A stretch of DNA of 56,604 nt from Nitrospira sp. UW-LDO-01 (lineage in GTDB: Bacteria; Nitrospirota; Nitrospiria; Nitrospirales; Nitrospiraceae), in the NCBI GenBank assembly GCA_002254365.1, contig NIUT01000221.1:1-56604 (forward strand). The letters are read 5' to 3'. The position numbers and the translations under genes are program-made. A model generated the notes under the pieces. It was not told the DNA's origin, did no database searches, and saw nothing but the letters and a program-made list of their open reading frames with translations. Below are positions 17,480 to 53,120 of the stretch, one piece after another. Position 1 is the first letter of the stretch. Each line of letters opens with the position of its first letter.

Positions 17480-18427
17480 GTGAAAGTCCAAGCCCAGTTT
17501 CCACAAGAACAATCGTCTACGGGAGAATTTCGACGCCAGGCAGATTCGTTCCGCAACTGGGTCACGGCCGATGGCGGCTCAGGCTATCCAGCCGCTGTGG
17601 GGCGGTATCATCTCTATGTGTCATGGGCCTGCCCGTGGGCCCATCGGACGATCATCGTTCGCAAGCTGAAGCAACTCGAGTCCGTGATCGGCATGACCGT
17701 CGTGGACCCGATCCGCGATGAGCGAGGGTGGGCGTTTCGTGAAGGTCCTGGGCACTCCCCAGATCCCATCAACGGATTTTCGTTTCTGAGTGAGGCCTAT
17801 AAAGCGACCGACCCGCGCTACATCGGACGTTTTACGGTTCCGGTGCTGTGGGACTCCGTCACCAAACACATTGTCACCAACTCCGACGACGACCTGATGA
17901 GAATCTTCAACGGTGAATTCAACCGATTCACCGAAAGTCCGATCGACCTGTATCCGGATGGACTGAGGCAAGAGATCGAGGAGCTCAACACGTTCATTTA
18001 CGAAAACGTGAACGATGGGGTCTATCGAGCGGGATTCGCCACATCACAACAAGCCTACGAACGAGCGGCCCGGCGACTGTTCGCCGCACTGGATCAGCTG
18101 GATGCACGCCTCGCCACGCGCCGCTATCTCTTCGGGCCGGAATTCGTGGAGACCGACTGGCGCCTGTTCGTCACACTCGTTCGGTTCGACGCAGTCTACC
18201 ACGGACATTTCAAGTGCAACATCAGACGCATCCTCGACTACCCGAATCTGTTTGGCTATCTCAAAGACCTGTACCAAACCGACGGCATCGCAGAGACGGT
18301 GAATTTCGACCACATCAAGCGGCACTACTACATCACGCACGACGACATTAATCCAACTCGTATCGTCCCAGTCGGCCCTGATCAAGACCTCAGCTCCGCT
18401 CATGGGCGGGAACGTTTATCCGGCTAG
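17480..18427 (+). CDS. Glutathionyl-hydroquinone reductase (GST Xi family)
   Basis: 315 residues, starting at a GTG preceded by AAAGGGA. It has the features of the YqjG/ECM4 group: YVSWACPWAHR with catalytic Cys51, then a thioredoxin-fold half with the cis-Pro region FTVPVLWDS and NSDDDLMRIFN, and an all-helical C-terminal half with GPEFVETDWRLFVTLVRFDAVYHGHFKCN, which is diagnostic for this family. The enzyme reduces glutathionyl-hydroquinones and uses glutathione. Whether this organism makes glutathione cannot be decided from the window. Cytoplasmic. It is divergent from cusBA. Confidence 0.9.
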   Translation: MKVQAQFPQEQSSTGEFRRQADSFRNWVTADGGSGYPAAVGRYHLYVSWACPWAHRTIIVRKLKQLESVIGMTVVDPIRDERGWAFREGPGHSPDPINGFSFLSEAYKATDPRYIGRFTVPVLWDSVTKHIVTNSDDDLMRIFNGEFNRFTESPIDLYPDGLRQEIEELNTFIYENVNDGVYRAGFATSQQAYERAARRLFAALDQLDARLATRRYLFGPEFVETDWRLFVTLVRFDAVYHGHFKCNIRRILDYPNLFGYLKDLYQTDGIAETVNFDHIKRHYYITHDDINPTRIVPVGPDQDLSSAHGRERLSG

Positions 18428-18475
18428 TTCCTTCGCCGCACGGAATCCGCATCGACGCTTCAGTAATCAGCCGCT

Positions 18476-18517
18476 CTCAAGGCTGGTTGTCTGTGCAATA
18501 AACTAGACAGCCTTGAG
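18476..18517 (+). terminator. Strong hairpin downstream of the GST gene
   Basis: CTCAAGGCTG at 18476-18485 pairs perfectly with CAGCCTTGAG at 18508-18517 (10 base pairs, 22-base loop that can add a TCT/AGA extension). It lies 49 bases after the GST stop. The bases after it are not T-rich, so a classic rho-independent terminator is uncertain; it could equally stabilise the 3' end of the transcript. Confidence 0.4.
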
Positions 18518-18640
18518 GATATTCTCCCCATCACCCCCTGTTATCTCAGCCTCACTTTGTAGATCCCCTCTGTCTTTACGGGTTTTTTAGACGCGCATAA
18601 GAGTTGCTGTATAGCTATAGAGGCGAGTGATCGTGTGTAC

Positions 18641-18728
18641 GGTGGCAGGAATATACAGCAGGGAGATGGCCCTGAAGTCAGCGCCCGAACAAGACAGCGG
18701 ATGTCGTAGCCACCCAGGGGAAACCTGG
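18641..18728 (+). ncRNA. Candidate structured RNA leader upstream of the 27-residue membrane peptide
   Basis: A closing stem GGTGGC (18641-18646) pairs with GCCACC (18709-18714). Inside it are a five-pair hairpin CAGGG/CCCTG (18659-18674) and a four-pair hairpin GACA/TGTC (18693-18705), giving a three-way junction. A further hairpin CCAGG/CCTGG (18714-18728) follows directly and is succeeded by a TATTTTATT stretch, the ribosome-binding site and the ATG at 18756. The layout resembles a cis-regulatory leader, but I cannot match it to a known riboswitch class. Structure is by hand-pairing only; no conservation data are available. Confidence 0.4.
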
Positions 18729-18755
18729 TATTTTATTCATTAAAACGGAGGGGTT

Positions 18756-18839
18756 ATGGAAAGCAGTCTCTTAATATTCGCCGTGGTCATGATCGGCCTT
18801 TTAATCGGTGGCATTGTCGTCTACAAGAAGAGTGCATAG
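18756..18839 (+). CDS. 27-residue single-span membrane peptide
   Basis: A short gene with a very strong ribosome-binding site (ACGGAGGGGTT before the ATG). The product begins MESSLLIFAVV, continues as one hydrophobic helix with GLLIGGIVV, and ends YKKSA, a positive-inside C-terminus. This is the shape of small accessory subunits of membrane complexes (CydX, CcoS and KdpF are examples), but no partner complex is next to it. A candidate structured leader lies upstream and a T-tailed hairpin follows 34 bases after the stop, so the peptide may have its own short transcript. Confidence 0.6.
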   Translation: MESSLLIFAVVMIGLLIGGIVVYKKSA

Positions 18840-18873
18840 CAGGTCACGTCCTGGTTTTCTTAGGGAAGTGTCC

Positions 18874-18974: not shown

Positions 18975-19013
18975 GATGATGTGCGCGTTCCGTACCGGAA
19001 CGAGCACATCATC
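18975..19013. repeat. Long hairpin between convergent units
   Basis: GATGATGTGC (18975-18984) pairs with GCACATCATC (19004-19013), and after one mismatch the stem continues for seven more pairs (CGTTCCG/CGGAACG) around a TAC loop. It lies about 35 bases beyond the stop of the minus-strand UspA gene. It may be a terminator without a T-tail or a dispersed palindrome. Confidence 0.5.
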
Positions 19014-19048: not shown

Positions 19049-19900
19049 TTATCTGACGACAAGGACTGAGCAAGCTGGTTGCTGGACAAGTTTCAACGAA
19101 ACGCTACCCTGAAGGAAGCGGGCCACAGCACTCCGCCCTTTTGCACCTGTCACAATCAAATCTGGCTGTTCGAGATTCACGATCTTCATGATTTCTTCCG
19201 CCGCCGGTCCGACCCGGGGAAATTGCCTGACCCGGTACCCGGCCTTTTCGAGTTTGGCGGCCTCCTGAGCCAGCAACTGTTCTCCCGCCTCTTTCACCGC
19301 CGTATACCGTAAGAACGGCATGACATGCACCAAGAGAATCACAAGGGGCTTGCCGTCGGCCGTAGCCTTGAATCGTTTGAGCAGAAACTGAAGGGCCTTC
19401 CCCGATGAGGCAGATCCGTCTGTTGCAAACAAGATCCGCCGAGGAGGGTGAGGCGGCTCCTTGACGATCAGGACCGGAGTCGTGGCATGGAGCGTCACGG
19501 CGGTCGACACACTCCCCAACATGAACCGATCAATGGCGTCCAAGCCTCGACTCCCCACCACGATCAATGCGGTACTTCCTGCATGCTTCAACAGCGCTTG
19601 AGCAATTGGCCCTTGTTCCACACGGACGGAGCCGGTCAATCTCAACTCACCCATCCGTTTCTTCGTGCCCTGTTCCACCTGTTTGGCTCGGGTTTCGAGC
19701 AAATGAATCGCTTCTCCAATGTCAGGTTCATACGAACTGACGGCGGGATAGGTGAGAGCCGGTACCCGGGCGGAATTGAGATCGACGGAATGGATCGCCA
19801 TCACCCGAGGGGCAGACCGCAAGGGAATCTTCCCCACCCAATCCAGCGCCCATTCGGAATATTTCGACCCATCGAGCCCCACCACAACCTTCATTGTCAT
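19049..19900 (-). CDS. Tandem-domain universal stress protein
   Basis: 283 residues with two UspA domains. The first (about 1-145) begins KVVVGLDGSKYSEWALDW and has the ATP-binding signature VVGSRGLDAIDRFMLGSVS. The second (about 150-283) begins RRILFATDGSASSGKAL and ends with VTGAKGRSAVARFLQGSVSLKL and CSVLVVR. The G-x-x-G-x(9)-G-S pattern in both indicates the ATP-binding subtype. The start has an excellent ribosome-binding site (GGAGGGGTGAC). Cytoplasmic. It lies downstream of a cytochrome c gene on the same strand; a paralogue is at 39208. Confidence 0.9.
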   Translation of the reverse strand: MTMKVVVGLDGSKYSEWALDWVGKIPLRSAPRVMAIHSVDLNSARVPALTYPAVSSYEPDIGEAIHLLETRAKQVEQGTKKRMGELRLTGSVRVEQGPIAQALLKHAGSTALIVVGSRGLDAIDRFMLGSVSTAVTLHATTPVLIVKEPPHPPRRILFATDGSASSGKALQFLLKRFKATADGKPLVILLVHVMPFLRYTAVKEAGEQLLAQEAAKLEKAGYRVRQFPRVGPAAEEIMKIVNLEQPDLIVTGAKGRSAVARFLQGSVSLKLVQQPACSVLVVR

Positions 19901-51153: not shown

Positions 51154-52332
51154 ATGCTGCGAAAGGAGGACTTCATGATGATTCAGGCATTGGCTCAACG
51201 TGGGCTCTATCTCTGTGACATTGCGACACAGGTGGGCGTGCATCCTCGAACCGTGCGGCGCGCACTGGCCCGCGGCGGGGCGCCAGCCCCGCGACCGAGC
51301 CGCCGGGGCAGTCGGCTGGATCCCTATCGAGCCGACATCGACCGGCTGTTAGCGGAGAACGTCTGGAATGCGGTGGTGATCTTTCGGGAGCTCCAGGCCA
51401 AGGGGTACACGGGGCGACTCTCGATTCTGCGGGACTACATCCGACCGAAACGCGCCCTGCGGGTGCGTCGGGCGACGGTGCGCTTTGAAACGGCGCCCGG
51501 CCACCAACTGCAGAGCGATTGGGCCGAACAGCGGACGCAGATTGCCGGGGCCGAAACCACTGTCCACTTCATTGTGAACACGCTGGGCTTCTCGCGGCGA
51601 TTCCACTTCTGGTGCACGGACCGTGAGGACGCCGAGCACACCTATGACGGACTGATCCGCAGCGTTGAGTGGTTTGCAGGCGTCCCCGCCGAAGTGTTGG
51701 TGGACAACCAGAAAGCGGCGGTGCTCGCTCATCCACGAGGTGGCCCGGCTCGCTTCCATCCCCGGTTTGTGGATCTGGCGGGCCACTATGGGTTTGTCCC
51801 GCGCGCCTGCCAGCCTGCCCGAGCACAAACCAAGGGCAAAGATGAGCGGATGGTCGGCTACATCAAGCACCACTTCTTTGTCCGGTATCGTGCCTTTGAG
51901 AGCTGGGCGCATCTCAATCAACTTGCCGAGCAGTGGTTGCGGGAGGAGGCCGACCAACGGCGACATGGGACCGTGCAGGAGCTCGTGGCTGAGCGGTTCG
52001 CCCGCGAGGCACCGGCCTTACGCCCCTTGCCAGCCACACGCTACGATACGGCCTACCGAGAAATCCGGCAGGTCAGCTGGGATGCCTACATCGAGGTCCG
52101 TGGCCGCCGGTATAGCGTCCCGGCTGACTTGGCGGGTCAAACGGTCCAGATCCGACTGACGCTGGCAAACGAGTTGGCTGTCTATCACGACGAGCACCTC
52201 GTGGCCACCCATTGCGTGGTGCCCGGAGCACCTGGCTGGGTCACGGTTCCATCTCACCACGCCGCCCTGTGGGCCCAGACGCTGGCGGTAGAGCAGCGGC
52301 CGTTGGCGGTCTACGAGGAGGTGGGGGCATGA
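51154..52332 (+). CDS. istA: IS21-type transposase IstA
   Basis: 392 residues. N-terminal MLRKEDFMMIQALAQRGLYLCDIATQVGVHPRTVRRALARG (shortened to the pieces LRKEDFMMIQAL and HPRTVRRAL) is an HTH region, followed by the integrase-type catalytic core with DWAEQRTQIAG (first Asp), VLVDNQKAAV (second Asp) and CQPARAQTKGKDERMVGYIK (Glu). Both ATGs (51154 and 51175) have ribosome-binding sites; the longer form matches the family N-terminus. Ends with an ATGA overlap to istB. Confidence 0.93.
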   Translation: MLRKEDFMMIQALAQRGLYLCDIATQVGVHPRTVRRALARGGAPAPRPSRRGSRLDPYRADIDRLLAENVWNAVVIFRELQAKGYTGRLSILRDYIRPKRALRVRRATVRFETAPGHQLQSDWAEQRTQIAGAETTVHFIVNTLGFSRRFHFWCTDREDAEHTYDGLIRSVEWFAGVPAEVLVDNQKAAVLAHPRGGPARFHPRFVDLAGHYGFVPRACQPARAQTKGKDERMVGYIKHHFFVRYRAFESWAHLNQLAEQWLREEADQRRHGTVQELVAERFAREAPALRPLPATRYDTAYREIRQVSWDAYIEVRGRRYSVPADLAGQTVQIRLTLANELAVYHDEHLVATHCVVPGAPGWVTVPSHHAALWAQTLAVEQRPLAVYEEVGA

Positions 52333-53120
52333 TGGAACTCAGCGTTCTCCTCGAACGGCTGAAGTTAGACCACCTGCTCACCCAACTCGATGGCGTCTGT
52401 GAGCAGGCGGCCAAAAGCGATTTGAATTACCAAGGGTTTCTGGCTCGAGCCCTCGAAGCAGAGTGGCGCGGGCGTCAGCAACGGGGGATCGACCTCCGGC
52501 TGCGGATGGCCAGGTTTCCATGGCTCAAAACCCTGGAGCAGTTCGACTTCGAGTGCCAGCCCTCCCTTGATCGTAAGGTCATGCGGGAACTGGCGGGACT
52601 CAGCTTCGTCGAGCGTGCGGAGAATGTTGTCCTGCTCGGCCCACCGGGTGTGGGCAAGACGCATCTGGCGATTGCCCTGGGCATCAAAACCGTCGAGGCC
52701 GGTTCATCCGTGCTGTTTCTGACGTTGGAGACGCTGATGAGTCGGCTGATCCGAGCCCGGCAGGAGAATCGGCTGGAGCGCATGCTGCAGCAACTGACGT
52801 ATCCCCGTCTCCTGATTCTCGATGAGCTGGGCTATCTGCCACTCTCGCGGGAGGAGGCCAGTCTATTCTTCCGATTGCTGGTCCGCCGCTATGAACGTGG
52901 GAGTTTGATTGTGACCAGCAACAAGAGCTTCGCGGACTGGGGTGAGGTCTTCAATGATCCAGTCCTGGCCACGGCGATCTTGGATCGGCTCCTGCATCAT
53001 GCGACAACACTCAACATCAAGGGCGAGAGTTACCGGCTTCGGGAAAAGAGAAAGGCTGGGCTCTTCGGCCGCCGACCGGTCGCCGAACTCGGGGAGGGCA
53101 CGACGGATGTGGCAATCTGA
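52329..53120 (+). CDS. istB: IS21 transposition helper ATPase IstB
   Basis: 263 residues of the AAA+ IstB/DnaC-like type: Walker A GPPGVGKTH, Walker B LLILDELGYLP, sensor SNKSFADWG and C-terminal LLHHATTLNIKGESYRLREKRKAG. Starts at ATG 52329 (ATGATG), overlapping the istA stop. Acts with IstA in target selection and immunity. No truncation. Confidence 0.93.
   Translation: MMELSVLLERLKLDHLLTQLDGVCEQAAKSDLNYQGFLARALEAEWRGRQQRGIDLRLRMARFPWLKTLEQFDFECQPSLDRKVMRELAGLSFVERAENVVLLGPPGVGKTHLAIALGIKTVEAGSSVLFLTLETLMSRLIRARQENRLERMLQQLTYPRLLILDELGYLPLSREEASLFFRLLVRRYERGSLIVTSNKSFADWGEVFNDPVLATAILDRLLHHATTLNIKGESYRLREKRKAGLFGRRPVAELGEGTTDVAI

Follow-up and report, generated by a model that had tools for sequence, protein, structure and literature searches.

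A 27-codon open reading frame preceded by RNA that can be drawn as an elaborate fold raises the question of whether the locus carries a new regulatory RNA, a functional small protein, or both. The first-pass annotation had placed a closed three-way junction and a hairpin ahead of a membrane peptide at positions 18641-18839. These positions belong to the window, i.e., the whole 56,604-nt stretch of DNA analysed, which is contig C221 of the 3.9 Mb draft genome G000, and the peptide ORF is situated there between a glutathione S-transferase gene on the + strand and a convergent universal stress protein gene on the - strand. The following features are discussed, each with its basis:

17480-18427, + strand: upstream syntenic gene, glutathione S-transferase (GST) family protein (Pfam GST_C_2; synteny)
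18492-18530, + strand: upstream element TGTGCA-N6-TAGACAGCCTTGAGGATATTCTCCCCA, read as a putative activator-binding site (conservation)
18595-18608, + strand: candidate core promoter box GCATAAGAGTTGCT, whose -24/-12 spacing is sigma-54-like but which lacks one G, the first of the -24 GG (conservation)
18619-18755, + strand: predicted 5' leader, apparently unstructured (start inferred from the sigma-54-like box; stability, covariation and length)
18747-18753, + strand: Shine-Dalgarno sequence GGAGGGG (sequence; GGAGG invariant in 14 orthologues)
18756-18839, + strand: gene of the 27-residue membrane peptide, MESSLLIFAVVMIGLLIGGIVVYKKSA (family alignment; purifying selection)
18975-19013, no strand: 17-bp imperfect hairpin in the gap where the peptide and Usp genes converge (z -6.42; compensatory changes)
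19049-19900, - strand: downstream convergent syntenic gene, universal stress protein (Usp) (Pfam Usp 1.5e-43; synteny)

The membrane peptide and the strong ribosome-binding site ahead of it, both proposed in the first-pass annotation, held up. The 27 residues encoded by the ORF include a long hydrophobic stretch, and reading of the sequences finds one such core common to the family, which places the peptide among small membrane proteins (<50 residues, single transmembrane helix). A DNA search returned alignable copies in relatives, with the ORF as the most widely covered part, and a profile built from 15 peptides (cut-off E <= 0.05) matched 63 of the 79 genomes of the genus, usually with two to five paralogues each; these 63 include G055, which matches weakly, and G000 itself holds three copies, on C221, C117 and C100. 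Altogether 129 peptides, 96 of them distinct, were gathered from 96 regions, and M1, D2 (E in some), F8, V11, M12, G19, V22, Y23, K24 and K25 proved invariant or nearly so. The pooled dN/dS values of five subfamilies (0.225, 0.138, 0.070, 0.233 and 0.079) are well under 1 and thus indicate purifying selection on the family. Short ORFs are common, so that a chance open frame within conserved promoter or untranslated DNA has to be considered; however, the 14 nearest orthologues share 89% identity with the window at codon positions 1 and 2 as opposed to 75% at position 3, and paralogues retain the protein although their flanks are unrelated. Together with the dN/dS values, this leaves next to no probability for a chance frame, which the codon pattern refutes. 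Searches with the peptide gave no Pfam or NCBIfam model above cut-off and nothing above chance in the PDB, and a literature search on Nitrospira small membrane proteins returned nothing relevant. As judged from its sequence, MESSLLIFAVVMIGLLIGGIVVYKKSA is a member of a previously unnamed and unannotated family of single-helix membrane peptides; since annotation usually passes over genes of this length, a conserved multi-copy family may have gone unnoticed.

The family occupies three syntenic locus classes, and a fourth type of paralogue was found in addition:

Class I, to which the window locus belongs: GST gene, about 200-340 nt, then the peptide; in most, a convergent Usp gene lies about 190-240 nt downstream
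Class II: PAS histidine kinase, LuxR-type response regulator and a small HTH-like protein, then the peptide; convergent MlaA lipoprotein gene
Class III: gene run ending in an amine-oxidase-like protein, 610-690 nt, then the peptide; a cytochrome c gene often lies convergent to it
Fourth, divergent type: MDVNTLTFAFVIVALGIGGVIVYLKGK in C100, found in many genomes

The neighbour names derive from Pfam, except for "HTH-like", which is our reading of a class II protein that has no Pfam match. Since the upstream regions of classes II and III differ from that of class I, one regulator does not cover the family. At class III loci (L038, L085 and L094), a second, very conserved short ORF starting MEDLSPPDHIGPPS was observed in the stretch that separates the peptide from the amine-oxidase-like gene. 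Class II loci (e.g., L032 and L035) carry a well-conserved leader of about 180 nt after a TTGACA/AATAAAT-like promoter, upstream of the peptide; a consensus structure search of these leaders gave nothing beyond weak pairs close to the start codon, of which one was compensatory, and no covarying structure.

Concerning the leader of the window gene, the drawing itself could be reproduced: RNAfold folds 18641-18727 into the three-way junction and the hairpin, and the junction is the minimum-energy fold. The fold is no better than chance, however, with z values against dinucleotide shuffles of +0.93 for 18641-18839 and -0.06 for 18637-18760, and between -0.9 and +1.67 (mean +0.33) for 14 orthologous 115-nt leaders. 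A structured cis-regulatory RNA, i.e., a riboswitch or protein-binding leader controlling the peptide, could draw on the closed junction and on helix 5, which is paired in 84% of the cells of the leader alignment A2 (14 sequences, 75% mean identity), yet the drawn structure as a whole pairs in only 67.2% of these cells. Compensatory changes in the stems, named in the first-pass annotation as the test of the idea, do not exceed shuffles: six pairs changed on both sides (5.2 in shuffles), covering ten cells (8.5 in shuffles), and both pair types and covariation score of the 14 sequences equal those of shuffles. RNAalifold likewise found no consensus structure in the 18641-18727 part of A2. Rfam had 0 matches in the window at the gathering threshold, and a permissive search of the region returned chance-level matches only. 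Moreover, across 45 class I loci the promoter box and the ATG lie about 47 to 215 nt apart: a large subgroup has 47-52 nt, the others 89-215 nt. Many orthologues that bear the box thus lack the 87-nt region altogether, and the locus does not require it. The structured-leader explanation is thereby largely refuted and very improbable, and what was drawn as a three-way junction amounts to an ordinary minimum-energy fold.

The 3' end also differs from the earlier description, in which a T-tailed terminator followed the peptide stop. The terminator scan lists none there, the only candidate being a 4-bp stem, CAGG/CCTG, at about 18840-18853 before GTTTTCTT, the halves of which are not kept in the aligned orthologues; the only + strand terminator-like match of the scan, 18714-18728, is the hairpin previously drawn inside the leader. 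The hairpin at 18975-19013, by comparison, is paired in 86.8% of cells over 12 distinct sequences and shows compensatory changes in six pairs (ten cells, 4.9 in shuffles). Despite having no adjacent T-run, it probably ends one or both of the peptide and Usp transcripts.

Conservation upstream of the peptide gene is concentrated elsewhere. Over the 14 orthologues, identity reaches 86% at 18491-18531 and 94% at 18593-18608, compared with 71% in the spacer between these two elements, 69% at 18641-18727, and 62% both at 18430-18490 and at 18609-18640. The control element conserved at this locus is, by this pattern, two-part promoter-like DNA upstream of the proposed leader rather than RNA, which corrects the idea of a new regulatory RNA at 18641-18839. 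As the peptide gene has a conserved promoter-like element of its own, it probably forms a short independent transcription unit, as the first-pass annotation had suggested.

The upstream element has the approximate consensus TGTSYA-N6-TAGACAGYCYTGAGGATATTCTCCCCA, and its 24-base core has a single 0-mismatch match in the window. With 0-2 mismatches, the element was found at the syntenic class I site of most peptide-bearing genomes; the reversed-pattern control gave three matches in all 79 genomes. The core box follows the consensus GCAY-N5-TTGCT. Element and box are separated by 62-65 bp at 12 class I loci, 73 bp at one and 81-86 bp at 32. The spacings thus increase by roughly one and two turns of the helix (vector strength 0.83 at 10.5 bp, compared with 0.56 at 9 and 0.60 at 12), which is suggestive of helical phasing among loci that are related and not phylogenetically independent. 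The module resembles sigma-54 promoters with activator sites in the -24/-12 spacing of its box and in its partly palindromic element, which lies 62-86 bp upstream and tends towards helical phasing, and G000 encodes RpoN (Sigma54_DBD 4.2e-58). Unlike sigma-54 promoters, it does not conserve the first G of the -24 GG: where the canonical form is TGGCAC-N5-TTGCW with GG at -25/-24, the box reads AAGCAC, GAGCAC, GCGCAT or similar, keeping the spacing, TTGCT and one G of the pair only. If the box is read as sigma-54, transcription would start near 18619. We know of no activator site that matches the 40-bp upstream element; with a clear promoter module at hand, its activator can be sought.

Exact copies of the core box occur only twice in G000, in the window and upstream of a haloperoxidase-like gene. 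At this second site, L293 (G000:C174), the full two-part module stands ahead of a 414-residue, apparently secreted, vanadium-haloperoxidase (VCPO)-like protein with a weak, below-cut-off match to the second domain of vanadium chloroperoxidase. Module and haloperoxidase-like gene were found together at about 11 loci in as many genomes (L278-L285, L289, L292 and L293), with a spacing of mostly 79-84 bp, and also of 61-62 and 90 bp, so that the phasing looks looser there and is not strict.

The distribution of the family is narrow. Of the 169 genera represented among 395 sampled genomes of the phylum, one has it, and 66 family loci were recovered from a collection of 84,980 species, all titled Nitrospira, Nitrospiraceae or Nitrospirae except for one Nitrosospira, by a scan that requires a near-match to a GGLIVYKKS-like stretch and consequently reaches fairly close relatives only. 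Ammonia monooxygenase (AMO, PF02461) is encoded in 48 of the 63 peptide-bearing genomes and in one of the 16 without the peptide; for AMO or HAO (PF13447), the counts are 58 of 63 and 1 of 16 (Fisher 4e-11, a p-value that ignores phylogeny), and 39 of 41 and 0 of 8 when only high-quality genomes are considered. Three partial HAO-model matches (~1e-30) in peptide-free genomes were treated as paralogues in these counts. As far as sampled, the family is thus restricted to one Nitrospira genus, mostly to its complete-ammonia-oxidising (comammox) members, and it marks most comammox-type genomes of that genus. Genomes with AMO and HAO form two monophyletic groups, clades A and B, which are separate genera under GTDB r220 (PMC12342949), and for this reason we reject the tracking of AMO/HAO as proof of function. 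Among the named genomes matching the family is CG24_B, the amoA of which clusters with Ca. N. nitrificans (PMC6365651), in turn used among the clade A standards (PMC12342949). Most likely, the family marks the clade A comammox lineage rather than ammonia oxidation as such.

Regarding function, we consider it reasonably probable that the window gene encodes an activator-controlled, single-helix membrane peptide of a comammox-concentrated multi-copy family that acts like YohP under stress. An activator would bind at 18492-18530 and, via DNA looping or from a fixed helix face, drive the promoter at 18595-18608, which may be sigma-54-like or use another alternative sigma factor; stress or energy limitation would be the triggering signal. 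The leader of the resulting mRNA would be plain apart from its strong ribosome site. The peptide, with its acidic N terminus and the KK at its C terminus, would insert N-out/C-in, may dimerise via the conserved GG motif, and could, in the manner of E. coli YohP, respond to stress by adjusting a membrane complex or the properties of the membrane. YohP has 27 residues, is mainly N-out/C-in and dimerises through a glycine motif; when it is produced, the membrane potential falls and metabolic silencing under stress is promoted (PMC12719787). The resemblance covers size, a single hydrophobic helix, an acidic start, the GG motif within the helix, the KK end and the predicted topology; we claim no homology. 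A difference from YohP is that a Nitrospira genome with the family usually carries two to five paralogues, which sit at syntenic loci. GST, Usp, two-component and envelope neighbours would fit a stress role, and the first-pass suggestion of a "stress peptide" is a reasonable guess.

Two other roles have to be weighed beside the YohP-like one. The peptide might be the toxin of a type I toxin-antitoxin module, repressed by an antisense RNA: Ldr and TisB-like toxins are hydrophobic single-helix peptides with a basic C terminus present in several copies, and the Nitrospira peptide shares these properties, including several paralogues per genome, as it shares the tiny single-helix build with Ldr, TisB and DinQ, which are sometimes multi-copy. 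This reading is improbable considering that the Nitrospira peptides keep syntenic positions, are under purifying selection over a genus and have, in contrast to type I toxins, a strong, apparently open Shine-Dalgarno sequence, with no inhibitory leader structure found. That the peptide serves a respiratory or ammonia-oxidation membrane complex of comammox Nitrospira as a small accessory subunit appears unlikely. The occurrence with AMO/HAO given above speaks for this reading, as do the cytochrome c gene adjoining class III and a size like that of small oxidase subunits such as CydX. CydX- and AcrZ-type accessory proteins, which act by binding larger membrane proteins, are likewise short and single-helix, although the Nitrospira peptide has no above-cut-off match among Pfam and NCBIfam models. 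However, the AMO/HAO comparison is confounded by shared ancestry, no family member adjoins amo or hao at the recorded positions, classes I and II have stress and envelope genes as neighbours, and other genera, comammox clade B among them under GTDB r220 (PMC12342949), apparently lack the family.

A broader reading joins several of these observations: with several peptides per cell, each at its own syntenic locus, comammox-clade-specific micropeptides might tune the energy-conserving membrane, i.e., AMO/HAO electron flow or the proton-motive force, and be co-controlled with the haloperoxidase-like secreted enzyme through a new activator and the sigma-54-like promoter. We regard this as speculative and distinctly unlikely. 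The family offers a testable handle on membrane adjustment in slow-growing nitrifiers.

In the surroundings of the locus, the stretch 19049-49685 brings together the Usp gene, Hyp maturation and NiFe hydrogenase genes, an Hsp20-like protein, a second Usp and acetyl-CoA-type enzymes, a set that, mostly from reading of the translations, resembles a low-oxygen or dormancy cluster. Near the contig end, at 51154-53120, the translations of two ORFs read like an IS21-type transposase pair (IstA/IstB-like).
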